DNA of 64,000 nucleotides from an uncultured Erysipelotrichaceae bacterium (lineage in GTDB: Bacteria; Bacillota_I; Bacilli_A; RF39; UBA660): assembly GCA_902775285.1 (NCBI GenBank), contig CACYLI010000003.1:1-64000 (forward strand). Reading direction: 5' to 3'. Shown here one piece after another: positions 5,531-58,635 of this stretch (within the stretch, counting starts at the first letter, position 1; every line of letters begins with the position of its first letter). The notes beneath the pieces are model-generated. The model ran no database searches. It was given only the letters and a program-made list of their open reading frames with translations, and had not been told where the DNA came from. The position numbers were made by a program, and so were the translations under genes.

Positions 5531-6852
5531 TAAACTATGCAAGATACATCAAATTTAAAGATTTTTCCTATTAAATTTAATACTGTTGGAAATAAGAATA
5601 TAATTGCAAGTATTATTGCCATCATAACTAAATCTTTACTAGCTTTCTTAAGTCCATCTGCATCTTTTGACATAATAGCTGGTATTAATTTTATCATTCC
5701 ATTTACAATAGCTATTATTGCTCCTAATATTTGTAATACTTTTATAGAACCTTTTACTACTTTTGTTAAATTTGTTCCTAAAATACTAGCACAATCATTA
5801 TTTTGATTAAAATCTAAATTAGGTACATTAGGAGCAGTTCCTCTACCTGTGGTTCTAAAATTATTTAAAGTTGATTGTTGATTATCTAGTTCACTACTAA
5901 CAGCATCACTTACTTGATCTTTTAATTCTTCTTCTTTCTTTTTAGCTTCTTCTGTATTAGAATTATCAGCTAAACAGCTAACAAGACTACTATTATTTGG
6001 AATTGCTTCTTCAAATAATGCTCTATCAGATTTTGATGGATTTTTTTCCTTTAAAACTACATATTTAATAAAATCTTGAGAATTTAGACCTGAACATTTC
6101 TGTTTTAAATGACAGAATAACGCAGCATTAGATATTGTATTGCCTTGTTTTATATATGTTACAAGTTCAGATTTAACTTTTTCAAATAAATCATTTGAAA
6201 ATCCAGTACTATTTTGTTTAATGCATTCACTAGCATATGTACTAGCAGCATCAGAAGAACTATTACTACAAAAACTTTCAGATAAAAATTTTTTTTCTAA
6301 ACATGTTTTCATTTTACCCAAAGTTTCGTTATCAACTGTTACTTCTCCTAAATTAGTTTCATCTACCCAATTATATGTTCCAGGATTTGAATAAGCAAAA
6401 TTAACATTTTGTAAATTATTGCTATCTAAACTAACATAAAAATATGGAGCACAACCACTATTTTCATCTAAACTACTTGGAACAGTAATAAATAATCTAT
6501 CACTATTCTTTTTTATAAGTATACCTGGATTTTTAGAATTATTAGGTGTAAATGCTTTATATTCTTGATAACATTTTTTTCCATTATCATGATATGCTGT
6601 ATAAAAATATCCTTTTTTAGCAGATGAATAATAACAAAGTCCATGAATTTTAACTTTTTGATCTTTTAATAAATAATCATGTTCATATACTTTTAATGGC
6701 TTTAAAGACGTATTTTTGCAACTTGAAGTACCTACACTAAAATTACAAACTTGATTAGAAAAATCTATTCCATCACAATTATCAGCATATACTTTATTAG
6801 TAAAAATTATAAAACTAAACATAATAAAAATATATATAAATAATTTTCTCAT
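5530..6852 (-). CDS. Cys-rich secreted protein with the same C-terminal two-helix module
   Basis: A 440-residue protein. Signal peptide 1-23 (cut after VYA), then an extracellular part of about 300 residues with some 14 Cys (ADNCDGIDFSNQVCNFS, GLCYYSS, SGCAPYF, SSSDAASTYASECIKQ), a Lys/Glu coiled stretch near 300-320, then the module DCASILGTNLTKVVKGSIKV to FDVSC in the last 88 residues. That module is nearly identical to the small protein downstream. I do not recognise the ectodomain. If the module acts as a pilin-like subunit or membrane anchor, this could be a capped or adhesive version; that is inference. Confidence 0.75.
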   Translation of the reverse strand: MRKLFIYIFIMFSFIIFTNKVYADNCDGIDFSNQVCNFSVGTSSCKNTSLKPLKVYEHDYLLKDQKVKIHGLCYYSSAKKGYFYTAYHDNGKKCYQEYKAFTPNNSKNPGILIKKNSDRLFITVPSSLDENSGCAPYFYVSLDSNNLQNVNFAYSNPGTYNWVDETNLGEVTVDNETLGKMKTCLEKKFLSESFCSNSSSDAASTYASECIKQNSTGFSNDLFEKVKSELVTYIKQGNTISNAALFCHLKQKCSGLNSQDFIKYVVLKEKNPSKSDRALFEEAIPNNSSLVSCLADNSNTEEAKKKEEELKDQVSDAVSSELDNQQSTLNNFRTTGRGTAPNVPNLDFNQNNDCASILGTNLTKVVKGSIKVLQILGAIIAIVNGMIKLIPAIMSKDADGLKKASKDLVMMAIILAIIFLFPTVLNLIGKIFKFDVSCIV

Positions 6853-6978
6853 TTTATTACCTACTTTCTATTAATAATAATAACATAATTATCATAAAAT
6901 AAAAATATACTTTACAACAAATTTTTACTATTAATGGAATTTTTATTATAAATATAGTATAATGATAATGGTGATTTT

Positions 6979-7506
6979 ATGTCAAATGCGACATACAAAA
7001 ATAGAGGTATGTTTCTTGAGAATATTATTAATGAATCTAATACTTATTATAATAGTATAGATAAATCATTAATATATAAGAAGCCTACACCTATTAAAGT
7101 ACTAAATGTTAGTTATCCAAATAATAAATCACATCTAATTGATAAAGCTGTATATTCTAGTATATCTACTCTTGATTATAATGGAATATATAGAGAAAAA
7201 TATATTGAGTTTGATGCTAAAGAATGTCATAATAAAACATCTTTTCCATTATCTAATATTAAATTTCATCAATTAGAACATATGAAAAAAGTAATTAAAC
7301 AAAGAGGAATTGTATTTTTAATAATATTTATGAATAATAATTTTTATCTATTAAAAGGTGAAGATATCATAGAATTTATAAATACAAGTGATAGAAAATC
7401 TATAGAATTTGAATATTTAGAAAGTAAAGGATATAAAATTAAAGAAAGTTATACCCCAAGGCTTAAATATTTAGATGCTGTAGATGAAGCATATTTTAAG
7501 GAGTAA
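6979..7506 (+). CDS. recU: Holliday junction resolvase RecU
   Basis: A 175-residue protein, shorter than Bacillus RecU (about 200). It has the family start YKNRGMFLENIINESN and the catalytic core STLDYNG with D66 then IEFDAKE with D79 and K81, the pattern of this restriction-endonuclease-like fold. RecU cuts four-way junctions in recombination and repair. It is 2 bp from the penicillin-binding protein gene, the conserved recU-ponA pair of Firmicutes. A TATAAT box lies at 6958-6963, 15 nt before the start. Confidence 0.94.
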   Translation: MSNATYKNRGMFLENIINESNTYYNSIDKSLIYKKPTPIKVLNVSYPNNKSHLIDKAVYSSISTLDYNGIYREKYIEFDAKECHNKTSFPLSNIKFHQLEHMKKVIKQRGIVFLIIFMNNNFYLLKGEDIIEFINTSDRKSIEFEYLESKGYKIKESYTPRLKYLDAVDEAYFKE

Positions 7507-10328: not shown

Positions 10329-10358
10329 AAAAGATGGTATTAATTACCATCTTTTTTA
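10329..10358. terminator. Bidirectional terminator between ponA and nth
   Basis: AAAAAAGATGGTA pairs with TACCATCTTTTTT around a short loop. It has T-runs on both strands and ends both convergent genes. Confidence 0.9.
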
Positions 10359-10979
10359 GTTCTTATTTTTTTCTTTACATATACTAATAAGATTACAATT
10401 TTTACATTTAGGATTTCTACTTGTACAATTATATCTACCAAATAGCACTAATTGAGAATTTATCTTATTCCAATCTTTTTCATCAAAATATTTTTTTAAT
10501 TTCTTTTCTGTTTTTAAAACATCATCATTTTTATTAGAAATACCTAGTCTTTTAGATACCCTAAATACATGAGTATCTACAGCAAATGAAGGCACGTTAA
10601 ATAGATTTGCTAGTACTACACTTGCTGTTTTTCGACCAACTCCATTAAGTTTTTCTAAATATTCTCTATCATTTGGAACATACCCTATTTTATTTATTTC
10701 ACTAACTATAGATTTAAAATTTTTAGATTTATTAGATACAAAGCCAATTCTTTTTATATAATTTTTTATATCTTCTATACTAAGAGTATTTAATTTATCA
10801 AGAGTATCATATTTCTTATATAATTCTTTAGTAGCAATATTAACACTTTTATCAGTTGTTTGAGCAGATAACATAACTGATAATAATAATTCATAATCAT
10901 GACTATACTCCAATTCACATTTTGGATTAGGAAATAGTATATCTAACTCATTTTTAATTATTTCTTTATTCATTATCAT
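10356..10979 (-). CDS. nth: Endonuclease III
   Basis: A 207-residue DNA glycosylase/AP lyase for oxidised pyrimidines. The helix-hairpin-helix LNGVGRKTASVV carries the catalytic Lys117 and is followed by the catalytic Asp135 in VDTHVFR. The C-terminal iron-sulfur loop has C-x6-C-x2-C-x5-C (CTSRNPKCKNCNLISIC). Length is usual. The start overlaps the end of dnaD by 14 bp; a second in-frame ATG two codons later is also possible. The dnaD-nth order is as in Bacillus, but here ponA-recU is convergent. Confidence 0.96.
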   Translation of the reverse strand: MIMNKEIIKNELDILFPNPKCELEYSHDYELLLSVMLSAQTTDKSVNIATKELYKKYDTLDKLNTLSIEDIKNYIKRIGFVSNKSKNFKSIVSEINKIGYVPNDREYLEKLNGVGRKTASVVLANLFNVPSFAVDTHVFRVSKRLGISNKNDDVLKTEKKLKKYFDEKDWNKINSQLVLFGRYNCTSRNPKCKNCNLISICKEKNKN

Positions 10980-11562
10980 CTAACCAATCATAATCAAACA
11001 TTTCCTCTGATTCTTTTTCTTCCTTAATACGCTTTTTAACACCCTTTTTAGACCATTCATAGATTATTTTATCAATATATTTGAAATTCCTTACATTATT
11101 TAAAATAGCTTCTTTAAGAGCTTCTTTTATTGTGCTTTCTTCTACTCCATTATCTATCCATTTATTAATAAGTTCATATTCAAAAGAAGATAAAGTCCTT
11201 CCTAATTCTTTTTCAAATAAAGCATAAATATCACTTTCATTCTTTTCTATTTTTTTATTTAATGCAAGTCTATCATATAATGGATCTAAAATAACTTTTT
11301 CTATAACATTACCATTATTATTACTTACATTCATTTCAATATATTTCTTATTAACTAAACTACTAAATGTATTAAATGCTTTTTCATCATCAAAACCAAG
11401 TTTCTCTTTAATATCATTAGTATCTAATAAATCAGATACATTTATAAAATATAATATTAATAAAAACTCATCCAATGTAATATCTAGTTCACCAATACAT
11501 TTTACTATATTACTATTTATAACAAAATCTTTAGTTTGAAAAACACTTCTTAAATCACTCAT
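10966..11562 (-). CDS. dnaD: DNA replication protein DnaD
   Basis: A 198-residue primosome protein. The N-terminal winged-helix part (DITLDEFLLILYF, LGFDDEKAFNTFSSLVNKKY) is followed by the DnaB_2 domain (FEKELGRTLSSFEYELINKW to NFKYIDKIIYEWSKKGV). The last residues are acidic, with a Trp (DYDWLDDNE). DnaD remodels DNA at oriC and helps load the helicase in low-GC Gram-positives. It is 2 bp after cca and overlaps nth. Confidence 0.93.
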   Translation of the reverse strand: MSDLRSVFQTKDFVINSNIVKCIGELDITLDEFLLILYFINVSDLLDTNDIKEKLGFDDEKAFNTFSSLVNKKYIEMNVSNNNGNVIEKVILDPLYDRLALNKKIEKNESDIYALFEKELGRTLSSFEYELINKWIDNGVEESTIKEALKEAILNNVRNFKYIDKIIYEWSKKGVKKRIKEEKESEEMFDYDWLDDNE

Positions 11563-19286: not shown

Positions 19287-19325
19287 AAAAAGAAATTATA
19301 TACACTCTAAAATGTATCAAATTTC
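19287..19325 (-). terminator. Probable terminator after the 19-20 kb paralogue pair
   Basis: An imperfect stem (AAATTTGATACA with TGTATATAATTT) is followed by CTTTTTTT. It overlaps the stop codon of the gene at 19307. Confidence 0.6.
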
Positions 19326-19936
19326 TTGTTTAATTTTTTTTCTTCTTCAAGAAGATTATCAATATTTATTGATTGAATACTTCTTATTTCATCTTCTAGA
19401 TTAATAAGTATATTCAAATATTTTCTTCTTATTAAAAGTTCATTACTAGAATAATTATTATCATTGTTTTTAAGAAGTTTTAATTCATTTATATAATTAC
19501 TTAATATATCTTTTAATTTTATTATATAATTTGATTTAATTTCTCTTTTTAAATTTAAACTAATTATAAACTCATATGTTTCATTAATACAATTTAAAAT
19601 TATATCTTTTGAAATAAATGATTCTTTTTTAACCTCTATTCCATTAAATCTATTTTTTAATTCATTTATTTCATCAATAGTTAAATATTCTTTAAAACTA
19701 TCTAAATGTGTTTCTAATTCATCATAAGATATTACTCCATGAAGATTTTTTTCATAGAATAAAACACTAGGGGCAGTCTTACTAACAATATAATATTCTC
19801 TTCTAGTAATTACATCTGTTGCTATATTATCATTTACACTAACAATTATATATTTATTAGTACTGTCAAAATCAAAAGCTGATTTTATTATACATAATTT
19901 AGCTAAATATAAATCTCTAACTCTAAATTCAGTCAT
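19307..19936 (-). CDS. Unknown protein, paralogue of its upstream neighbour
   Basis: A 209-residue cytoplasmic protein that I do not recognise. The N-terminal 60 residues look like a small beta domain (VRDLYLAKLCIIKSAFDF, then NIATDVITRREYYIV). The rest is helical, ending with IRRKYLNILINLEDEIRSIQ and a Lys/Glu coil. It matches the upstream gene along its whole length, and the stop of that gene abuts its ATG (TAAATG), so the two are probably made together. The strand DVITRREYYI recurs in the terminal genes of the operon at 51-53 kb. Confidence 0.7.
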   Translation of the reverse strand: MTEFRVRDLYLAKLCIIKSAFDFDSTNKYIIVSVNDNIATDVITRREYYIVSKTAPSVLFYEKNLHGVISYDELETHLDSFKEYLTIDEINELKNRFNGIEVKKESFISKDIILNCINETYEFIISLNLKREIKSNYIIKLKDILSNYINELKLLKNNDNNYSSNELLIRRKYLNILINLEDEIRSIQSINIDNLLEEEKKLNKKFDTF

Positions 19937-20587
19937 TTACAAAACCATCCTACTCTCTAATTTTTTTTCATCCATTTTAAGATTTCTAAGATTAATATTA
20001 TCTAAATGTCTTAATTCATCTTCAATCTTTATAATAGATGTTAAATATTTAATTCTAATAGATTGTTCACTTATCTCAAAATTAGAATTAAAACTATTAT
20101 TTTTCTTTAAAATACTTATTTCTTTTATATAATTTCTTGATAATTCTTTTAAAGATATTATATATTTATTTTTTTCATCTAATTCAATATCTAATGAATC
20201 TAAAAATAAATATGTTTCATAAATACACTTTAATATTAAATCTTTTGGATATTCATTTTTATCTTTATCTTTATTAACTGCCCTATAATATACCATTTCT
20301 AATTCATCTAAAGAAACTTTTTCTTTTTGTTCATATAAAAATTTTTCAATTGGCATAAAAGCATCTATTGCTTGGTATCCACATTTATCTGCAACATCTT
20401 CAAATTCACATTGTTTCCATATAAGATATTCTCTTTTAGAAAAAACATCTACAGCAGTTTTATTATCAGTTAAGTAAAAAATACTATAAGCTTTCTTTTC
20501 TTCAATATATCTTGTTAAAGGATCTTTATCATTATAATAAATTACTCCAAGCGTACCAATATATATATCTTTTGTATCAAATAACAT
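19937..20587 (-). CDS. Unknown protein, first of a paralogous pair
   Basis: A 216-residue protein without signal or membrane helix. The N-terminus DIYIGTLGVIYYNDKD leads to NKTAVDVFSKREYLIWKQ; the helical second half has LKELSRNYIKEISILKKNN and IRIKYLTSIIKIEDELRHLD. It is the same design as the next gene. The family is unknown to me. Two copies in tandem with no gap suggest a heteromer, but that is inference. The start has a weak GGTGG-type ribosome site. Confidence 0.7.
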   Translation of the reverse strand: MLFDTKDIYIGTLGVIYYNDKDPLTRYIEEKKAYSIFYLTDNKTAVDVFSKREYLIWKQCEFEDVADKCGYQAIDAFMPIEKFLYEQKEKVSLDELEMVYYRAVNKDKDKNEYPKDLILKCIYETYLFLDSLDIELDEKNKYIISLKELSRNYIKEISILKKNNSFNSNFEISEQSIRIKYLTSIIKIEDELRHLDNINLRNLKMDEKKLESRMVL

Positions 20588-38517: not shown

Positions 38518-38805
38518 TTATTTAGATACAACTCTAATATTACTATTATTATACTCCAAACCAAAGGTATCTGCAACTTCTAAAGCATTATCAAGTGATG
38601 ATAATTCATTTATTTTCATTTGAATACTAGCATTTAATTCTTCTTGTGTATTTATTTTTTGTTTTAATCTTTGTAGTTCTGAGTTATGAGATTGAATCAT
38701 AGCTTGTCCAATAAAATTAACAAACAAAGTACCTACTATAAATATACATATAATAGCAGTCATTGTATTTTCAATTTTTAATTTTATATACTTTTTCTTT
38801 TTCAT
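38518..38805 (-). CDS. ftsL: Cell division protein FtsL
   Basis: A 95-residue bitopic protein: basic cytosolic head, one helix (MTAIICIFIVGTLFVNFIG), then a leucine-zipper-like coil (LQRLKQKINTQEELNASIQM) and a short end with VADTFGLEY. It bridges FtsB/DivIC and the septal synthases. Identification rests on layout and place between rsmH and pbpB; it overlaps rsmH by 4 bp. Confidence 0.88.
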   Translation of the reverse strand: MKKKKYIKLKIENTMTAIICIFIVGTLFVNFIGQAMIQSHNSELQRLKQKINTQEELNASIQMKINELSSLDNALEVADTFGLEYNNSNIRVVSK

Positions 38806-39704
38806 TTTACCCTTTCTATTACTCTTAACTTCGAACTTCTACTCCTATTATTATCATCTAGTTCTTCATTACTAGGTGTTATTTTCACTATTTTTTTAGC
38901 TCTTGCTTTTAAATGTTCTGGTACAATTGGAAGCTTTTTAGCACTTTCATCATCACTACACAAATCTTTAAAAACATTAGCTACTATTTTATCTTCTAAT
39001 GAATGAAAACTTATAACACAAAGTCTTCCTCCAACATTCAATAAATCAAATGCATTTCTAAGTGAACTTTCTAAAATATCTAGTTCATGATTCACTTCTA
39101 TTCTAATTGCTTGAAATACTCGTCTAGCTGGATGCGATTTATTTCTATAACTTATCGGTACATTATTTTTTATTAGTTCTGCTAATTCTAAAGTTGTATT
39201 AATTGGTCTATTGTTAACTATAGCTTTTGCAATATTTTTAGAATATTTTTCTTCCCCAAATTTATAAAATATCTCTACTAATTTTTCATAACTATAATTA
39301 TTAACCACATAATGTGCATCTAATTCTTGTGAAGTATCCATTCTCATATCAAGCCTAGCATCTTTATGAAAACTAAAACCTCTTTCTTCTTCATCTAATT
39401 GTGGACTAGATACACCTAAATCAAATAATATACCATCAACATTTTCATTAATATAATCTTTCATATTAACAAAATTGCTTTTAATAATTTTAAAGTTATC
39501 TGATATTTTAGATAACTTTTCTTGTGAATACTTGATAGCTTCACTATCTTGATCAAAGGCGAATAGAAACCCCTTTTTATTCAATTTCTTTAATATCTCG
39601 CCTGAGTGCCCTGCGTATCCAACAGTAGCATCTATGTAAGTTTTACCCTCTGATACATTTAAATATTCTATTACCTCGTCTAACAAAACACTTTTATGCT
39701 TCAT
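38802..39704 (-). CDS. rsmH: 16S rRNA m4C1402 methyltransferase RsmH
   Basis: A 300-residue SAM-dependent enzyme, normal length. MKHKSVLLDEVIEYLNV opens the protein, YIDATVGYAGHSGEIL is the SAM site, FDLGVSSPQLDEEERGFSFH is the family signature, and VISFHSLEDKIV and SRSSKLRVIERV close it. It overlaps mraZ by 11 bp and ftsL by 4 bp. Confidence 0.98.
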   Translation of the reverse strand: MKHKSVLLDEVIEYLNVSEGKTYIDATVGYAGHSGEILKKLNKKGFLFAFDQDSEAIKYSQEKLSKISDNFKIIKSNFVNMKDYINENVDGILFDLGVSSPQLDEEERGFSFHKDARLDMRMDTSQELDAHYVVNNYSYEKLVEIFYKFGEEKYSKNIAKAIVNNRPINTTLELAELIKNNVPISYRNKSHPARRVFQAIRIEVNHELDILESSLRNAFDLLNVGGRLCVISFHSLEDKIVANVFKDLCSDDESAKKLPIVPEHLKARAKKIVKITPSNEELDDNNRSRSSKLRVIERVK

Positions 39705-40131
39705 AATTACTATCGAATATATCTTCAGTTATTTCTTCTAAAGACTCTTCATTAACTTTCATATAATTATTAAATTCTTCTAAGCTCCATATTTCTAGTC
39801 GTTCATTTACGCCAATAATCACACATTCTTTTTGAATATTGGCGTAATGAACTAACGGTGAGGTAATATTAATTCGACCTTGTTTATCGAATTCGGTAAT
39901 GGAAGCTCCACCTATAAAAGCTCTTTCAAATGCTCTTACATTTTTCTTTGTAAATTGTAGGTTACTTACTTTTGCCATTATTTTATTCCATTCAACTTCT
40001 GAATAGACAAATAAGCACTTATCAAGTCCTTTAGTGATAATGAATCTTTCTCCTAATTCACTTCTAAACTTAGAAGGAATTATTAATCGACTCTTCTCAT
40101 CAATATTATGATGAAATTCACCCATTAACAT
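39694..40131 (-). CDS. mraZ: Transcriptional regulator MraZ
   Basis: A 145-residue protein with two SpoVT/AbrB-like halves: MLMGEFHHNIDEKSRLIIPS with KFRSELGE, and ITEFDKQGRINITSPLVHYA. DKSR- and DKQGR-type loops bind the repeats ahead of the operon. The ATG at 40129-40131 matches the family start and has GGGGTG upstream; the open frame reaches 12 codons further. It leads the division operon and should regulate itself. Confidence 0.96.
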   Translation of the reverse strand: MLMGEFHHNIDEKSRLIIPSKFRSELGERFIITKGLDKCLFVYSEVEWNKIMAKVSNLQFTKKNVRAFERAFIGGASITEFDKQGRINITSPLVHYANIQKECVIIGVNERLEIWSLEEFNNYMKVNEESLEEITEDIFDSNYEA

Positions 40132-46714: not shown

Positions 46715-49222
46715 TCATAATAATTTACTTGTGGTTATATAATTTTCTTGGCCAGGTATATAAACTGAAATACAATTAAATAAAATGTTTTTACATTCAT
46801 TTATTAATTCATAATCTTGAACTAATATATTAGATGAAATCAATATATTTATGATATATGAATCTATATTATCTATTATTTCCTTGATATTCATATTTGA
46901 AAAATCTATTAATGAAAAGTATATTTTAATATATTCAATAACAAAATCTTTATTATTTCTTAATTCCTCACTTGCATATTTAATTGCATTTACATTATTT
47001 TTGACTACTTTTAACATAAAATCAATATCATTTTTTAAACTTTCATTTACATTTTCTAAAACTTTATCATTTATTTTAATTAAGTCCAAAACAAAATTTT
47101 TATCTTTTTTTAAGTCATCATCTATAAAAGAGAATACATCTGCATTTTCTTTTATAGCTTTAGTCAATACTTCCTTATCTCTTTTTAATTCTTTAGTTAA
47201 ATTTATAATTGCATATCCATTTTGCTTTACAGCTTCTAATGCTATTTGTTTATCATTTCTTATTTCTTTACTTAAATAAAAAAGTACATTGCCATCTTTC
47301 CTAACTGCTTCTAATACTATTTGCCTATCTCTTTTTAATCTTTCACTTGCATAACTTATAGCTGTTGGATATTTTTTTATTGCTTCTAATACTATTTCTC
47401 TATCATTCTTTAGTCTTTCACTTGCATATTGAAGAGATTTTCCATTTTGTTTTATTGCAGATAATACAAATTCTCTATCATCTTTATATTTTTCACTTGT
47501 AGCCCCAAGATTAAGTCCATTTTTCTTTACAACTTCTAATGATATCTCTCTATCATTCTTAATTTCTTCACCAGCAAATTGAAGTGCATTTCCATTTTGT
47601 CTTATAGCTTCTAATATTACTGTTTTATCATGTTTTAATTCTTCACTTACAAATTCTAGTACAAGTCCATTTTCCTTTACCGCAGATAAAACAAAATCTT
47701 TATCATTTTTAACTTTCTCACTTACAAATTCAAATGAATATACATTTTCTTTTAAAGCTTCTAGTATTATTTCTCTATCATTCTTGAATTCATTGCTTAT
47801 ATATTTAAATACCAGTCCATTTTGTTTTACAGCAGATAAAATAAAGTCTCTATCATTTCGAAATTTTTCATTTAAAGATTTAAAATTAGAGGCTTTCTTG
47901 TTTATCAAACTTAAAACAATTTCTAAATCATTTTTTAACTCTTCATTTCCAAATTGGAATGCATGAATATCATATTCTAGTAATCTTAACATAAATTGTT
48001 TGTCATATATAACAAAAGTTTTTGGAATAATATTTATATTTTTTGAAAATATTCTACATTTATCATCTAAATTCTTGATTCTATCAAGATCAATTATAAT
48101 ATCTCTTAAATCAATTGTTTTCATTACCATTGGATCATTTTCCCATCCAAATCCATATTTCTTAGTATATAATAAAACAATTTCATTTTCGTTTAAATCA
48201 ATCTTATAAACTGTTTTTTTATGTATTTTATACAATTCTTTTAAATCATTTATTATTGTTAATTGATTATTTCTCTCTTCATCACTTAAAAAAAGCATTT
48301 CGTTTAGCTTTGATTCTAAGGGATTCATCATTTCTTCTTCTAAATTTTGATTTTCTGCTACACCTCTTATTTCTCCAATACTTTTTGTTTCATTCATTCT
48401 AATAGCTATTCTTGGTATAGTATATTTATTTTCATCATCTAGTGTATAATACACATAAAAATCTCCACCTAAATAACCTCCTCCACCACAAATTTGATTG
48501 ATTGCCATTGATTCATTTGCTGTACACCATTTTGTACCTTTATTTTCTAAAGAGAAAGCTAGTTTATTCGCATCATCTTTATTTTTGTAATTATATTTTA
48601 TCCAAATGCCTTGTGTTGAATTAGTCTTTTGTTTATTAGCTAAATTAAATTTATTTTCATAATATTCATATAGTTTTTTAAAGCTTCCTGACTCTAGTAT
48701 TGGTTTTATTTCTAAATTAAGAGTTTCTTTGCTTTCTAAATAATTCATCATATTAAATATGCAATTAGATATTATTTCTGGATTAGCATCTACAAAAGGA
48801 GCTAATGTATTATCACTTCTTCTTTGATATACATTTCTTGCTTCATCATATGTTCCTAATTTTAGCATTCCTTGAAATGCCCAATACTTTGCCCACATTG
48901 GGTACATTGCATCATCATCTGTTAAATAATCTATCCACATTGAAAGTCTTTTCTTTTGTGAATCTATTATTTCTTTTTTATTTAATCCATAAGGAATATT
49001 TTCTTCTTTTATTATATATTTTCTGAAATAAAAACTTTTAAGTAAGTTTTTTTTGCTTTCTGTATTAGCTAAATTATGTACTTTTTTAAGTCTATCCATA
49101 TATTTTTTTATAGCTTCTTCTTTTTTATCATCTTTTTCACTTGTATGTTGTACTTCTTCACTTAAATACAAATCTTTATACAATCTATTTAAAAACTTTT
49201 CTCCTAAGTAATCTTCTTTCAT
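46715..49222 (-). CDS. DUF4116 repeat protein with N-terminal WCTA-type domain
   Basis: An 835-residue protein. The first 300 residues contain YPMWAKYWAFQGMLKLGTYD, GTKWCTANESMAINQICGGG and GDFYVYYTLDDENKYTIPRI followed by AIRMNETKSIGEIRGV. This block resembles a family of small-substrate or toxin-like folds, but I cannot name it. From about residue 405 to 760 come 14 DUF4116 repeats of 25 residues (pattern EELKNDREIVLEAIKQNGNA), a helical solenoid. No signal is seen. The ATG at 49220-49222 is preferred over a GTG three codons up because GAGGG lies just before it. Its role may be protein binding. Confidence 0.78.
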   Translation of the reverse strand: MKEDYLGEKFLNRLYKDLYLSEEVQHTSEKDDKKEEAIKKYMDRLKKVHNLANTESKKNLLKSFYFRKYIIKEENIPYGLNKKEIIDSQKKRLSMWIDYLTDDDAMYPMWAKYWAFQGMLKLGTYDEARNVYQRRSDNTLAPFVDANPEIISNCIFNMMNYLESKETLNLEIKPILESGSFKKLYEYYENKFNLANKQKTNSTQGIWIKYNYKNKDDANKLAFSLENKGTKWCTANESMAINQICGGGGYLGGDFYVYYTLDDENKYTIPRIAIRMNETKSIGEIRGVAENQNLEEEMMNPLESKLNEMLFLSDEERNNQLTIINDLKELYKIHKKTVYKIDLNENEIVLLYTKKYGFGWENDPMVMKTIDLRDIIIDLDRIKNLDDKCRIFSKNINIIPKTFVIYDKQFMLRLLEYDIHAFQFGNEELKNDLEIVLSLINKKASNFKSLNEKFRNDRDFILSAVKQNGLVFKYISNEFKNDREIILEALKENVYSFEFVSEKVKNDKDFVLSAVKENGLVLEFVSEELKHDKTVILEAIRQNGNALQFAGEEIKNDREISLEVVKKNGLNLGATSEKYKDDREFVLSAIKQNGKSLQYASERLKNDREIVLEAIKKYPTAISYASERLKRDRQIVLEAVRKDGNVLFYLSKEIRNDKQIALEAVKQNGYAIINLTKELKRDKEVLTKAIKENADVFSFIDDDLKKDKNFVLDLIKINDKVLENVNESLKNDIDFMLKVVKNNVNAIKYASEELRNNKDFVIEYIKIYFSLIDFSNMNIKEIIDNIDSYIINILISSNILVQDYELINECKNILFNCISVYIPGQENYITTSKLL
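46950..48010 (-). repeat. About fourteen 75-bp coding repeats (DUF4116)
   Basis: The 25-residue helical repeat recurs with period 75 bp. Bases vary more than amino acids, so the array is old and under selection. Confidence 0.8.
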
Positions 49223-49267
49223 AACCCTCACCTATTATAAATTAATTATACAACAAAAGTATCAAAA

Positions 49268-49325: not shown

Positions 49326-50906
49326 TTAAAAATTTAATTTTCTTTCTATTCCTCTATCATTTATCATTGTTTCTAAATATGGATATTCTTTAAATAATTC
49401 ATTATATTTTTTAATTAAACTTTCTAATTCATTTTTAACTTCTTTATAATCTCTATGTGCATCTCTATAATCATTTGGATTATAACTTACACGACCCTTA
49501 TCTCTATATAATTTTATAGCTTTATTAATTTTTTCTACTGGTTCATCTACATCAAATCCACATTCATCTAAAAAAGCATATTTAAACCCTACTAATATTA
49601 CGAGTAATATATTTATAAAACCAAAACTAACTATTAAAAATAAAATATTTAATATTGTAAATGCATTAACTGGACCATCACTACTAGTAGCTATTTTATA
49701 TTCTGTAATATTTGGAATACCTGCTTCATCAAATGATAATTCTGTTGTATCAATTAAATTATTTGGATCAAGTTCAATATTTGTATAATCTTTTAACTCA
49801 AGATTACTATCTTTTACTATATATGTATTAATAGTCCAAGTTTTTGTTTCTTCATTTGGAATAAAATGAGTAATTTTAACTTTTCCTCTATCTACTTCAA
49901 AAGTATCCTCTAGATAAAAATCTCCATCAATTTCACTATAACCTGTTGTATCATAATTTCTTTCAATTATATGTATATCTTTTTTATTTAATCCTTTAGC
50001 AAACAATCCATTAGCACCAATTATTACTGCAAGAGATAATCCAAACATGGTAATATTAAATGTACCTTGAACGATACCACTTAATAAATTTTTAGTAGCT
50101 TTACCAAAGTATGCAGAAGTTGTATGTTTAATATCTTTTTGTCTTTTTAATTCAAGTTCACATGATGATAATTCACTTTTTTTCTTATCAATTGAAAATA
50201 AATCATCATTCATTTCTTTAATTATCTTTTCTAGATAATTATCATCATACACAGAAGCAAGTAAAAATATCTTATTTCTATTTTCTTCATCTATTTTCTT
50301 ATAATTAATATCTCTTAAACTTTGTAATAAATCTTTATTACTAGACATATTATCTATATCATTAATAGCTAGTTCGTTTAAAATACTAATATCAATATTC
50401 ATATCATATATATGATTTAAAATCGTAGAACTTCCATATTTTCTAAATTCATATTTGATAAATGGATAAATAGTTTCATAAACATTATCTAATACATTTT
50501 TATTTAATTTACCAAATGATTGAGCTTTTTCTAAATTTAATAAATTATAATTAATTTGTTTTATTAAAGACTCAAATTCACCATCAGATAATTCTCTTTT
50601 TTCTTTTATTTTTTTTATATCTTGAACAGTTTCAAATATACCAAAAAAAGAATAAATTTTATTAACTAAAGCTTCAAGTTCATCTATAAATTTATATGTC
50701 TTTTCTAATTTTTTACTTTCTTGTGATAAAGTAGATGAATTTGAAAGTGAATTTGGGATAAAATTATTTAAGTTATCAAAACTCTTATCAATAGATTGTA
50801 AATCTTTTTCTAAATAATCACTACTTAAACCAAAACTACTAATAATTTTAATCTTTTCATAAATTGATTCTAGTTTAACTCTAGCAGTATATACATCTTC
50901 TAACAT
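49326..50906 (-). CDS. Unknown coiled-coil membrane protein
   Basis: A 526-residue protein. Residues 1-270 are helical and charged (KTYKFIDELEALVNKIYSFF, SSCELELKRQKDIKHTTSAY). A helix near 287-307 (GTFNITMFGLSLAVIIGANG), a beta stretch of about 100 residues (EIDGDFYLEDTFEVDRGKVK) and a second helix (ILNILFLIVSFGFINILLVI) follow. A cytosolic coil (DYKEVKNELESLIKKYNELF) closes it. The layout is coil, helix, outside domain, helix, coil. I do not recognise it. It follows the six-gene operon after a terminator. Confidence 0.7.
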   Translation of the reverse strand: MLEDVYTARVKLESIYEKIKIISSFGLSSDYLEKDLQSIDKSFDNLNNFIPNSLSNSSTLSQESKKLEKTYKFIDELEALVNKIYSFFGIFETVQDIKKIKEKRELSDGEFESLIKQINYNLLNLEKAQSFGKLNKNVLDNVYETIYPFIKYEFRKYGSSTILNHIYDMNIDISILNELAINDIDNMSSNKDLLQSLRDINYKKIDEENRNKIFLLASVYDDNYLEKIIKEMNDDLFSIDKKKSELSSCELELKRQKDIKHTTSAYFGKATKNLLSGIVQGTFNITMFGLSLAVIIGANGLFAKGLNKKDIHIIERNYDTTGYSEIDGDFYLEDTFEVDRGKVKITHFIPNEETKTWTINTYIVKDSNLELKDYTNIELDPNNLIDTTELSFDEAGIPNITEYKIATSSDGPVNAFTILNILFLIVSFGFINILLVILVGFKYAFLDECGFDVDEPVEKINKAIKLYRDKGRVSYNPNDYRDAHRDYKEVKNELESLIKKYNELFKEYPYLETMINDRGIERKLNF

Positions 50907-50992
50907 TATTACACCCCTTTTGAGTGTGATGTATTATATCATAAAATGGTATAAATGTAAATTAATATTCTTATAAAAATTTTGTACAAAAT

Positions 50993-51017
50993 AAAAATAC
51001 CTATTTCTAGGCATTTT
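50993..51017 (-). terminator. Terminator of the six-gene paralogue operon
   Basis: AAATGCCTA/TAGGTATTT hairpin with a GAAA loop, then TTATTTT on the minus strand. Confidence 0.85.
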
Positions 51018-51018
51018 A

Positions 51019-51477
51019 TTATCTTAAATGTATTTTTAATTCCATGAATGATTCATTTAAATCTTCAATTGCGCTCATATAAGCTTCATAATCTTTTATA
51101 TTTTTATTTAGTATTTCTTGTAAACATTCATCATAACTTTTTAAAGTATCATCTTCCATTAAATTTTCTAATAGATATTGTTTTTTTATTTTTCTTTGTT
51201 GATTTAAATGAGATACTTTAGTTAATTCTTTTAATGTTGGTTCTCTTTTTCCTATATAAGTTAAACATGGATCACATCCACATTCACTTATTTTATATAT
51301 TTTTCTACCAGTGAAAAATTCAATCATTACATCTTCATTAATTTCATCTGGTATTCCAATTACTGGAACAAATTCCCATTCATAGTCATTTTCAGTATAC
51401 ATATGTGCTTGCACGGAATCTATATATCTATTATTATTTAGTTTTAAAACATAAAACTTTAACATTTTATTAGTCAT
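51019..51477 (-). CDS. Unknown protein, last gene of the overlapping operon
   Basis: A 152-residue soluble protein. The first half is beta-like (MLKFYVLKLNNNRYIDSVQA, EDVMIEFFTGRKIYKISECG), and the second half is helical and charged (NKNIKDYEAYMSAIEDLNES). It has the same plan as the first gene of the operon (52888-53343), including the strand DVMIEFFTGRKIYK, and similar strands occur in the pair at 19-20 kb. Two Cys (CGCDPC) are close together. Its ATG shares a base with the stop of the gene before (TAATG). Confidence 0.72.
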   Translation of the reverse strand: MTNKMLKFYVLKLNNNRYIDSVQAHMYTENDYEWEFVPVIGIPDEINEDVMIEFFTGRKIYKISECGCDPCLTYIGKREPTLKELTKVSHLNQQRKIKKQYLLENLMEDDTLKSYDECLQEILNKNIKDYEAYMSAIEDLNESFMELKIHLR

Positions 51478-51857
51478 TATAAAGTCCTTTCTTGAATGTT
51501 TTCATTTAATCTTTCTATTTGATTTCTTTCATCTATTAAATGCATATGTAAAATATTTTTATCAATTACTTCAACTAGAAAAGAAAAATACATATCTCCA
51601 TATTGACTAGTTCCACCAAAAGGATACACACTTAATATTTCAAGCTCTATGTATTCATCTTTATTATAATTAGCAGGATCAATAACAATAGAATTGTCGC
51701 TTTTAGATAAATATATTTTGTGTATTTCTTCAGTGGAAAAAATGCAGGTAGCATATTTTGAATCAAGCATTATAATTCTACTTTCTTCATATGTTTTATT
51801 TAGTCCACCAGAACCATTATTAATTTTACCAAGTATAATGCTATTACTATCTACCAT
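51477..51857 (-). CDS. Unknown small paralogue B4
   Basis: A 126-residue protein. NSIILGKINNGSGGLNKTYE with ESRIIML opens it; KIYLSKSDNSIVIDPANYNK, ELEILSVYPF and FLVEVIDKNILHMHLIDERN follow. The last part is a charged helix. The same motifs recur in the three genes upstream. A small beta domain followed by one helix is likely. The family is unknown to me. The start overlaps the previous gene by 11 bp. Confidence 0.75.
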   Translation of the reverse strand: MVDSNSIILGKINNGSGGLNKTYEESRIIMLDSKYATCIFSTEEIHKIYLSKSDNSIVIDPANYNKDEYIELEILSVYPFGGTSQYGDMYFSFLVEVIDKNILHMHLIDERNQIERLNENIQERTL

Positions 51858-52233
51858 AAGTTAATCCCTCTAATAATTGTCTATTTAATTCAACTTGCAT
51901 TCTTTCATCTACTAAGTGAGCATGTAATAATTTTTTATCAATTACTTCTATTAGAAATCTATATACAGTTCCATAACCATTATCAGCTTCAAATGGTGTA
52001 ACTCCAATTACTTCACACTCAGTAAATTTATCTTTCATACTTTCATATAAATCAATATCTACTACCTTAAGTAAATTATTTTCATTTAAACATACTTTAG
52101 TATTTTCTGGATGATTTATTATTTCTTCCAATAATTGAAAACGAATAATAGCAGTAACACTATCTTCATATGTTTTACTAAAAGTACTTTTTGCTCCTAT
52201 TTTACCTAATATTAAACTATTATTTTCTTCCAT
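51847..52233 (-). CDS. Unknown small paralogue B3
   Basis: A 128-residue protein with MEENNSLILGKIGAKSTFSK then TYEDSVTAIIRFQLL, ECEVIGVTPFEADNGYGTVY and FLIEVIDKKLLHAHLVDERM. It is of the same family as its neighbours. I choose the ATG at 52231-52233, which gives the shared MEENN start and a 14-bp overlap with the gene before. A frame five codons longer has no ribosome site. Confidence 0.75.
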   Translation of the reverse strand: MEENNSLILGKIGAKSTFSKTYEDSVTAIIRFQLLEEIINHPENTKVCLNENNLLKVVDIDLYESMKDKFTECEVIGVTPFEADNGYGTVYRFLIEVIDKKLLHAHLVDERMQVELNRQLLEGLTYGR

Positions 52234-52573
52234 AACTACCCTCCTCAATTACACGTCTTAATAATTCAACTTGCATTCTTTCATCTCGTAAATGTCTATA
52301 TAAAGCATCTTTTTTAATTACTTCAACGAAATATTCATTTTCACAATTATATATCATATTTAAAATTTCTAATTCTTTACACATATCAGTGTCTTTATCA
52401 CTTATAAATATTTTACCAGAAGAAGTTATATATAACTTTTCTCTATCTGTTTTTCTAGTTAATTTATAAATATCTATAGAACTTAAAGTAATAATCATAC
52501 TTTCTGAATAAGTTCTACCAATTCCACCTCTTCCATTAGTTATTTTTCCTAATATTAAATTATTTTCTTCCAT
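52220..52573 (-). CDS. Unknown small paralogue B2
   Basis: A 117-residue protein: MEENNLILGKITNGRGGIGR with TYSESMIITLSS, LYITSSGKIFISDKDTDMCK, NEYFVEVIKKDALYRHLRDE and a last helix ending EEGSYGRK. The last codons (SYGRK and stop) lie in the same DNA as the MEENN start of the next gene in another frame. The overlap with the gene before is 14 bp. Confidence 0.75.
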   Translation of the reverse strand: MEENNLILGKITNGRGGIGRTYSESMIITLSSIDIYKLTRKTDREKLYITSSGKIFISDKDTDMCKELEILNMIYNCENEYFVEVIKKDALYRHLRDERMQVELLRRVIEEGSYGRK

Positions 52574-52901
52574 AACTATCTCCTAATTCAGTTAATCTTA
52601 ATTTCTCATCTACTAAATGTCTATGTAATATTTCTGGCTCTATAAATTCACACATAAAATATACATCACTAGAGATTGGATAAACATTTAATAATTCTAA
52701 TCTTTTCCAACTATCAGAATCTGGTTCATCAATTGCCAATATACTTCCATTATCTGTTAGATATAAATTTGTTTTTTTATTAAAAATGTCATATATTAAA
52801 GTTCGATTATGTAAAACTATAAAAAAACTTTCTTCATATGTTTTATGTATTCCATTCTCATTTCCAGGAATACGACCAGTTATTATACTATTTGTTTCCA
52901 T
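52560..52901 (-). CDS. Unknown small paralogue B1
   Basis: A 113-residue protein: METNSIITGRIPGNENGIHK then TYEESFFIVLHNR, NLYLTDNGSILAIDEPDSDS, RLELLNVYPI and EFIEPEILHRHLVDEKLR. The C-terminus is DSYGRK, again read from the start of the following gene. It is the first of four B paralogues and overlaps the A-type gene before it by 14 bp. Confidence 0.75.
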   Translation of the reverse strand: METNSIITGRIPGNENGIHKTYEESFFIVLHNRTLIYDIFNKKTNLYLTDNGSILAIDEPDSDSWKRLELLNVYPISSDVYFMCEFIEPEILHRHLVDEKLRLTELGDSYGRK

Positions 52902-53343
52902 TTTTTCTCCTTAATTCAATACAATAATTACTAAATTCATCCATTTCTTCTAAATAAGTTAAATAAGTTGCATAATCTCTAGTTATTATTCTTTCAAGTT
53001 CATTTAGTGTATTAATATATTGTTTAATATGTTCTTCACTAAGTTCTTTAAATCCATTAATAAAGTAACCCATATTACTCGGATCAATTAATACCGCATC
53101 ATGATATGTTATATACGGAACATAACTATTTTCATTCTTTCTATATTTTCTTCTACTAATAATATCAATCATAGTATCTTCTTCAAATTCATCTTTAACA
53201 CATATAATATTTACTTGTTTCTTATCAACACAATATTTATCATCTTTACTACCATAAACTCTAGTTTCAATATATCCATATGTGATATCAGATTCACAAT
53301 CTCTAGATTTATTAAGGTAAACTCTATAATATTCTTTTTTCAT
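52888..53343 (-). CDS. Unknown protein, first gene of the overlapping operon
   Basis: A 151-residue soluble protein: MKKEYYRVYLNKSRDCESDI, a beta strand EDTMIDIISRRKYRKNENSY, then a helical tail (HIKQYINTLNELERIITRDY, YLEEMDEFSNYCIELRRKNG). It matches in plan the last gene (51019-51477), so the operon reads A-B-B-B-B-A. The ATG at 53341-53343 follows TAGGAGG; the frame extends seven codons further up. Not recognised. Confidence 0.75.
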   Translation of the reverse strand: MKKEYYRVYLNKSRDCESDITYGYIETRVYGSKDDKYCVDKKQVNIICVKDEFEEDTMIDIISRRKYRKNENSYVPYITYHDAVLIDPSNMGYFINGFKELSEEHIKQYINTLNELERIITRDYATYLTYLEEMDEFSNYCIELRRKNGNK

Positions 53344-53366
53344 TAAACCTCCTAAAATTGTCACAT

Positions 53367-53395
53367 ATTATATCATAAAAACAAATCCTAGTCAA
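53367..53395 (-). promoter_or_regulatory. Promoter of the six-gene operon, inside a terminator hairpin
   Basis: On the minus strand TTGACT (53390-53395), 17 nt, and TATAAT (53367-53372). The -35 box is in the descending arm of the hairpin at 53387-53410, the same design as behind tsf. Confidence 0.75.
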
Positions 53396-53410
53396 TTAAA
53401 TGACTAGGAA
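53387..53410 (-). terminator. Terminator upstream of the six-gene operon
   Basis: TCCTAGTCA/TGACTAGGA hairpin with a six-base loop, then TTTGTTTTT on the minus strand. It may be the old terminator of a tRNA remnant just upstream (53411-53455). Confidence 0.75.
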
Positions 53411-56895: not shown

Positions 56896-58635
56896 TTATT
56901 CATTTTTTATTGATAAACCTAGTTCTTCTAGTTGTTTTTCATCAACAGAATTTGGACATTCTGACATTAAATCACTAGCACTTGCTGTTTTAGGAAATGC
57001 TATTACATCTCTAATATTCTCTGTACCAGTAAGAAGCATTGTAAGTCTATCAAGTCCAAGTGCAAATCCACCATGAGGAGGACAACCATATTTTAATGCA
57101 TCTACAAAGAATCCAAATTTTTCTTGAATTTGTTCTTCTGTTAATTCTAAAGCTTTAAACATAGTTTCTTGAACTTTTTCATCATGAATACGAATAGATC
57201 CTCCTCCAGCTTCATATCCATTTATTACAATATCATATGCTTTAGAATAACAATTAGCTTTATCAGTTAAAAGTTTACTTACATCTTCATCTTTAGGCAT
57301 TGTGAATGGATGGTGGCATGCCATAAATCTATTTTCTTCTTCACTCCATTCAAATGATGGAAAATCAACAACCCATAATAGTTTATAATCATCCTTATTA
57401 ATTAAATCTAAATCACGAGCTATTTTACATCTAAGTGCGCCCAAAGAAGTTTTAACTATATTCTTTTTACCACTAACTATTAAAACCAAATCATTATCTT
57501 CTATTTTTAATTCATTATGAATATTATTTAATTCTTCATCACTTAATACCTTTACAACAGAACCACTTATTTCATTTTGATATTTTATATAAGCTAATCC
57601 ACCTGCTTTATATGTTTTTACAAATTCAGTTAATTTGTCTAAATCTTTTCTAGAATATTTATCAGCAGCATTTTTAACAACAATAGCATTAATAATTCCA
57701 TCTTCATCTATTACACTTTTAAATAAGCCAAAACTAGTATTTTTGAAGATTTTAGTTATGTCATTTATTTCCATTTCAAATCTTAAATCTGGTTTATCAC
57801 TTCCATATTTATCAATTGCATCATCATATTTCATTCTAATTAAAGGTAATTTTATATCAATATTTTTAACTTCTTTAAATATAGATGCAATTAAATTCTC
57901 TCCTAAAGTCATAACATCATCTTCATCTACAAATGACATTTCTACATCTATTTGAGTAAATTCTGGTTGTCTATCTGCTCTTAAATCTTCATCTCTAAAA
58001 CATTTAGCTATTTGAAAATATCTTTCAAATCCACTAACCATTAAAAGTTGTTTAAATATTTGAGGAGATTGAGGAAGTGCATAAAACTTACCCTTATTTA
58101 CTCTACTTGGTACTAAATAATCTCTTGCTCCTTCTGGAGTAGATTTACATAAAATTGGTGTTTCTATTTCTAGAAAATCTAAATTATTTAAAAACTTTCT
58201 AGTAGCATAAGTTATATTATTTCTTACTACAAATTTTTCTTTTAAACTTTCTCTTCTTAAATCTAAATATCTATATTTAAGTCTTGTATCTTCTAAAGCA
58301 GTAGTATCATCACTTATTTGAAAAGGTATTTCTTTAGAAGTATTAATTAATACTAATTCTTCAGTTTCTACTTCTATTTCTCCAGTTTGTAATTTAGTAT
58401 TTTTACTTTCTCTTTCTACTATTTTACCTTTAACATTAATAACATATTCATTTTTTAATGTATTAGCTAAATCATAATACTTATTATCAGGTCTTACTAC
58501 TACTTGTATTATTCCACTTCTATTTCTTAAATCAATAAATACTAATCCCCCTAGATTTCTAACCTTTGATACCCATCCATTAATATTTACTTTTTTATTT
58601 ACATCTTTGATGTTATAAATTTTAAACTTTTCCAT
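56896..58635 (-). CDS. aspS: Aspartyl-tRNA synthetase
   Basis: A 579-residue class II synthetase. The anticodon-binding OB fold has [20 protein letters not shown]. Motif 2 is [20 protein letters not shown], and motif 3 is [21 protein letters not shown] bacterial insertion domain lies in the middle. Length is normal (about 590). It charges tRNA-Asp (and perhaps tRNA-Asn; the residues that decide this were not checked). It is under T-box control. Confidence 0.97.

Follow-up and report, generated by a model that had tools for sequence, protein, structure and literature searches.

An array of overlapping genes from two families of small paralogous proteins in an uncultured, presumably gut-dwelling bacterium

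Homogeneous polyimmunity loci and polyimmunity proteins were described by Zhang et al. (2012; PMC3482391). The proteins are fusions of several copies of a domain within one chain, and the loci usually occur once per organism. A second type of gene organization is relevant here: in E. coli, a spacing of -8 to +10 nt is found for 30% of the genes of heteromeric complexes versus 7% (Huber et al., 2023; PMC10666635). We have analysed a six-gene array in the 1.44 Mb draft genome of an uncultured Erysipelotrichaceae bacterium, contained in a 64,000-nucleotide stretch of DNA that is referred to below as the window. The organism is presumably a member of the Bacilli that lives in the gut or the rumen. 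As in the homogeneous polyimmunity loci, its genes are closely spaced, distant paralogues arranged in tandem on the same strand. Their products may form a set of interchangeable binding or protective proteins. We tentatively propose, as a possible rather than a probable reading, that the array works like such a locus, with a bank of differently specific protective proteins.

The genes belong to two families, A and B, and are transcribed from the minus strand in the order A, B4, B3, B2, B1, A with no intervening genes. The first A gene (52888-53343, with its ATG at 53343) encodes 151 amino acids, or 158 if an alternative GTG start at 53364 is used. It is followed by B4 (52560-52901; 113 amino acids), B3 (52220-52573; 117), B2 (51847-52233; 128), B1 (51477-51857; 126) and the final A gene (51019-51477; 152). 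A preliminary description had proposed a six-gene A-B-B-B-B-A unit at 51019-53343, and all six reading frames are confirmed on the minus strand. The overlaps that it gave (14, 14, 14, 11 and 1 nt) are exact. All five junctions thus overlap, compared with four of the 46 pairs of codirectional neighbours in the window outside the array, and this difference together with the dN/dS values of B orthologues discussed below (0.29-0.55) shows that the array is not due to chance. An unbroken series of five is unusual for the window, although isolated cases of 11 nt and 14 nt are present at other places in it (38802-40131 and 10356-11562). The four B proteins are 31-39% identical in pairs and the two A genes are homologous to each other (BLASTP E = 3e-6). 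The B identities and the overlaps support the earlier view of a tightly packed, operon-like unit of diverged paralogues.

The start signals of the B genes, all on the minus strand, lie inside the preceding gene. The Shine-Dalgarno sequence of B4 (AGGAG, 52907-52911) is found within the upstream A gene, that of B3 (AGGAG, 52580-52584) within B4 and that of B2 (AGGAGG, 52240-52245) within B3, each at 4-6 nt from the ATG, and B1 has a Shine-Dalgarno-like GAGGG (51866-51870) within B2. The A/B4 overlap (52888-52901, minus strand) is ATGGAAACAAATAG. The B4/B3 overlap on the same strand (52560-52573), ATGGAAGAAAATAA, provides the beginning of B3 and, when read one frame over, the GRK-stop of B4. It recurs as the identical 14 bases in the B3/B2 overlap (52220-52233, minus strand) and belongs to an exact 20 nt repeat with 52219-52238. 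The B2/B1 overlap (51847-51857, minus strand) comprises the 11 nt ATGGTAGATAG. In one frame AGTTATGGAAGAAAATAA encodes S-Y-G-R-K-stop, while in the other, from the ATG, it encodes the M-E-E-N start. A B-B pair on contig C13 of this genome is joined in a similar way, with RRK-stop over EEN, and M-E-E-N-N/S starts hold an out-of-frame TAA or TAG within 14 nt.

The preliminary description had also pointed to SYGRK and MEENN as read from the same repeated bases in two frames. This part is correct, but SYGRK is not a shared protein feature. The tail is missing from B1 and from every B member outside the array, and since each B start is preceded by its own Shine-Dalgarno sequence in the upstream gene, SYGRK corresponds to start-site DNA read in another frame. 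We therefore rejected it as a protein motif: the repeated DNA is the ribosome-binding and start region of the next gene and the tail is a by-product. Translation of neighbouring array genes would be coupled.

The first A gene is preceded by a promoter-like sequence, TTGACT-17-TATAAT (53367-53395, minus strand), which has an extended -10 element and agrees with the consensus in 11 of 12 positions. It is a consensus match only; shuffled sequences contain promoter-like sites as often as this region does. A terminator-like inverted repeat on the same strand (53386-53409) overlaps the -35 element of this promoter and would isolate the operon from the upstream gene. The operon end is marked by a terminator-like hairpin with a U-rich tail (50985-51025, minus strand; z = -4.5, with none of 200 shuffles equally stable), which is missing from the sites reported by the scan that gave the promoter-like sequence and the inverted repeat.

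The array adjoins a gene for a 526-residue membrane protein (49326-50906) that matches no recognized family and is encoded a second time elsewhere in this genome. Relatives of this protein occur in tandem in two other genomes of the genus, four in G003 (contig C18, 31911-38070) and three in G007 (contig C16, 3402-8007), and the best ones are found in genomes that also carry B. An 838-residue protein encoded nearby (46715-49231) contains 11 DUF4116 repeats. The interval between aspS and hemW, which in the window is occupied by the A-B array together with two sigma-like genes, contains in G013 (contig C26, 4142-10339) an unusual run of sigma-70-like genes. There are five of these in tandem; four encode 392-472 residues and one encodes 300. 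Within the genus, aspS (56896-58635 in the window) comes in two very unlike versions, with 82-85% identity in five genomes and 41-45% in most others. A protein encoded at 1004-2296, read by eye from its translation, is presumably serpin-like.

Neither family could be named. Profile searches of Pfam, NCBIfam and PADLOC bear out the earlier statement that no known family applies, and no convincing match was found in the PDB. The PADLOC-DB profiles of known anti-phage defence proteins gave no match for both A proteins, B1, B3 and their relatives, and Pfam, including its immunity families, yielded no noteworthy match for either family. A YopX match for one B-family row (E = 0.013) is too weak to count.

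Conservation within B is focal. Over 11 B domains, the mean pairwise identity is 64% for the NSIILGKI motif, 72% for LNKTYEES and 54% for the EVID..L..HL region (VEVIDKNILHMHLIDE), compared with 15% for the 42 residues that follow the KTYEES motif. On these identities, the B domain consists of a constant N-terminal motif and the EVID..L..HL motif with a variable middle. Between G003 and G007, the dN/dS values of B orthologues are 0.29-0.55, compared with 0.09 for alaS and 0.03 for tuf, which indicates that the B genes encode real proteins that are under purifying selection and evolve faster than alaS. In two single-domain B genes, synonymous changes between these genomes affect 6% of codons, compared with 19-23% in the flanking genes (p = 1.5e-4 to 3e-3, in a post hoc test picked after seeing the data). 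This may reflect recent exchange or a constraint at the RNA level.

An AlphaFold2 model of B1 (mean pLDDT 79) shows a small alpha-beta domain, a long C-terminal helix and a low-confidence N-terminus (pLDDT 46 for residues 1-10 and 60 for residues 11-20). Fold searches gave a best VIA Z of 3.7 for B and 3.2 for A, and no Foldseek E value was below 0.001. The models rest on few sequences (20 for B and six for A), and the lack of a confident match indicates neither a new nor a known fold.

The A proteins share a MIDLLTGKKIY-like motif followed by P..[IL][TS]Y. Their C-terminus is helical and forms a 47-residue helix in the model. Homologues of the array A proteins are encoded on contigs C13 and C15 of this genome and in G003, G007 and G004. 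The family is somewhat wider, as other genera also gave matches, although weaker ones (best E = 9.6e-9). In G322 a 252-residue protein (1357-2115) appears by eye to contain two A-like units in one chain. A is not homologous to B (hhalign probability 0.2%), and no significant homology was found with the 258-residue protein that follows a B gene in G003 and G007. The same applies to a pair of adjacent paralogues in the window (19307-20587; 209 and 216 residues, 36% identical), despite a DVITRREY motif that resembles that of A.

The profile of the four B proteins identifies seven copies at three loci in this genome, while G003 and G007 each have B at two loci. B is thus found in three of the 18 genomes of the genus. 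The other 15 gave no good match, four very weak ones in G001, G009 and G015 (E = 0.02-0.04) not being counted. An enriched profile run against 386 genomes of the family returned G000, G003, a prophage gene in G219 and a weak match within a large frame in G187, while G007 was not among the results. The B family is very rare by these searches, in which absences of A or B are soft as draft genomes can lack copies.

The slot between tgt and a small membrane protein illustrates how these genes turn over. It is empty in G016, G010, G001 and G017, holds one A directly after tgt in G004, A-A in G003 and G007, and B-B-A in this genome, where the 59 nt gap after tgt supplies its own TATAAT and AGGAGG. 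In G003 and G007, tuf is followed by two BB two-domain fusions and one B, and a single B follows alaS, ahead of the gene for the 258-residue protein. B also stands alone before a gene read as a HAD-type phosphatase. The arrangements thus comprise A-B-B-B-B-A, B-B-A, A-A, A alone, B alone and BB+BB+B fusions. Among the genomes examined, an A, four B genes and an A in succession are found in this genome only. The relatives examined have no counterpart of the array: the aspS-hemW interval of G013 holds sigma-factor paralogues instead, and the stretch after aspS in G016 contains unrelated genes. As number and order are variable, the array is, from this comparison of species of one genus rather than strains of one species, one state of a varying module.

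This variation bears on the two readings offered by the preliminary description. A hetero-oligomer with fixed ratios is not supported, as number and order differ between loci and species, and the alternative of a diversifying set fits better. The same description had set random variation of copy number and order against its proposal, and the variation found is not far from that outcome. A hetero-oligomer in which the B proteins assemble together, perhaps with A, and overlapping starts keep the amounts of subunits matched, is the strongest competitor of the polyimmunity-like reading, and we consider it rather unlikely. The enrichment of short overlaps among genes for heteromeric complexes (PMC10666635) is in agreement with it, as are the natural B-B fusions of G003 and G007, which place two B domains in one chain. 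A common interface could be formed by the constant motifs at the N-terminus and in the helix, and the long C-terminal helix of the A model is also compatible with assembly. Against this, both the number of copies and the A:B ratio differ widely, some loci have B without A and others A without B, and the three 14 nt overlaps and the 11 nt overlap exceed the -8 to +10 nt band in which enrichment for complexes was tested.

The B family is, as judged by homology, shared with phages. A B profile built without phage members finds one gene in a prophage of G219, a genome of another genus (E = 8.1e-9 as calculated for a single genome, with 386 searched), and this homologue is more distant than the copies within the genus. 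Two IMG/VR phage contigs carry relatives that are 57-58% identical to the prophage gene, and alignment of the phage set with the B set by hhalign gives a probability of 93.6% (E = 2.2e-7). The prophage spans 1077-13703 of contig C41, with the B homologue (6742-7101) among small genes between those for SSB and terminase; in one IMG/VR contig it precedes the terminase genes (names in both cases read from translations). The prophage also has genes for a YopX-like protein and for a vWA-type protein (read by eye). The phage-side relatives match phrog_30355, a phage family without functional annotation (E = 1.7e-7 and 4.3e-6), which was matched by none of the bacterial B proteins scanned, including those of the window. 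In 295 genomes of the phylum, phrog_30355 gave weak matches only, within long frames or frames with stops. A Vibrio phage match of the prophage homologue (E = 0.09) lies inside a predicted P-loop ATPase gene and was judged to be due to chance. No B was found in named phages and plasmids.

These homologues raise the alternative that B was taken from a phage and multiplied by this lineage, or the reverse, and acts on machinery of the phage or the host, for instance in superinfection or counter-defence. Detection of the prophage gene by the bacterial profile, the hhalign match and the position of the homologues among small phage genes all favour this idea, which we nevertheless regard as unlikely. 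With three phage-side members only, the direction of transfer cannot be told, and the B tree, which has long branches and weak inner support, settles neither the order of duplication nor the direction of the phage link. No phage genes were recognized beside the bacterial copies, and the match of the phage members to the unannotated phrog_30355 gives no function. An equally unlikely possibility is plain tandem duplication, in which near-redundant copies spread and drift. The overlaps would then arise incidentally from AT-rich B starts, whose out-of-frame stop readily ends the upstream gene. Other tandem families in relatives (four copies of a 520-residue protein in G003 and the sigma factors of G013) might suggest this, but B is under purifying selection, a ribosome-binding site and the two constant motifs have been retained in every copy although the sequences have diverged by 60-70%, and overlaps are uncommon elsewhere in the window.

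The polyimmunity-like reading remains our preferred one. The array proteins are apparently cytosolic, small and diverging members of a lineage-specific operon. In the mechanism that we envisage, one mRNA would yield the whole set of small diverging paralogues and coupled translation of neighbours would ensure that all members are present together. The constant parts of each B would fold or bind a common partner, while the variable middle would recognize its own particular variant of an incoming protein. The bank would be functionally equivalent but differently specific, with toxins of rivals or phage proteins as targets. Recruitment to this operon would have added A as a second family, and its long C-terminal helix could oligomerize.

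Several observations point this way: the tandem same-strand arrangement of distant paralogues with no other gene between them, the variation of number and neighbours within the genus with B in three of 18 genomes, the two-domain B fusions after tuf in G003 and G007, the focal conservation of B combined with its dN/dS, the low synonymous change in two single B genes, which is consistent with recent exchange, and the presence of related genes in one prophage and on two phage contigs. On the other side, no toxin or secretion gene was recognized beside any copy and no catalogued immunity or defence family matches, and for want of a catalogued immunity family we do not file the array as a polyimmunity member. 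The most conserved N-terminal segment would suit a docking tail for one partner equally well. A more elaborate version is improbable: a new kind of protective array shared with phages, in which a small domain combines an invariant N-terminal tag with a variable middle. Its copies would have been multiplied, exchanged and fused in the chromosome to give a bank of differently specific binders that are co-expressed through embedded ribosome-binding sites.

Two families without named relatives, one of them shared with phages, expand and turn over in uncultured gut Bacilli with small genomes. A protective set would provide a compact and testable model for the diversification of a bank of binders; if it is a complex, it would be a paralogous assembly of variable stoichiometry. 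In either case the A and B families deserve names.

Compared with homogeneous polyimmunity loci, the array is likewise uninterrupted by toxin genes, its gene number and type differ between related genomes and multi-domain fusions exist for B. It differs in that its proteins have no catalogued immunity domain or known toxin partner and in that the genes overlap rather than merely lie close together. It also differs in that there are three loci in this one genome, which counts against the likeness given that one per organism is usual (PMC3482391). The resemblance to phrog_30355 is found in the phage-side relatives of B, and the link runs through these phage members only. With the translationally coupled operons for heteromeric complexes (PMC10666635) the array shares gene starts inside the previous gene, but here the overlaps are 11-14 nt, each B gene has a Shine-Dalgarno sequence and the genes are paralogues of variable copy number.
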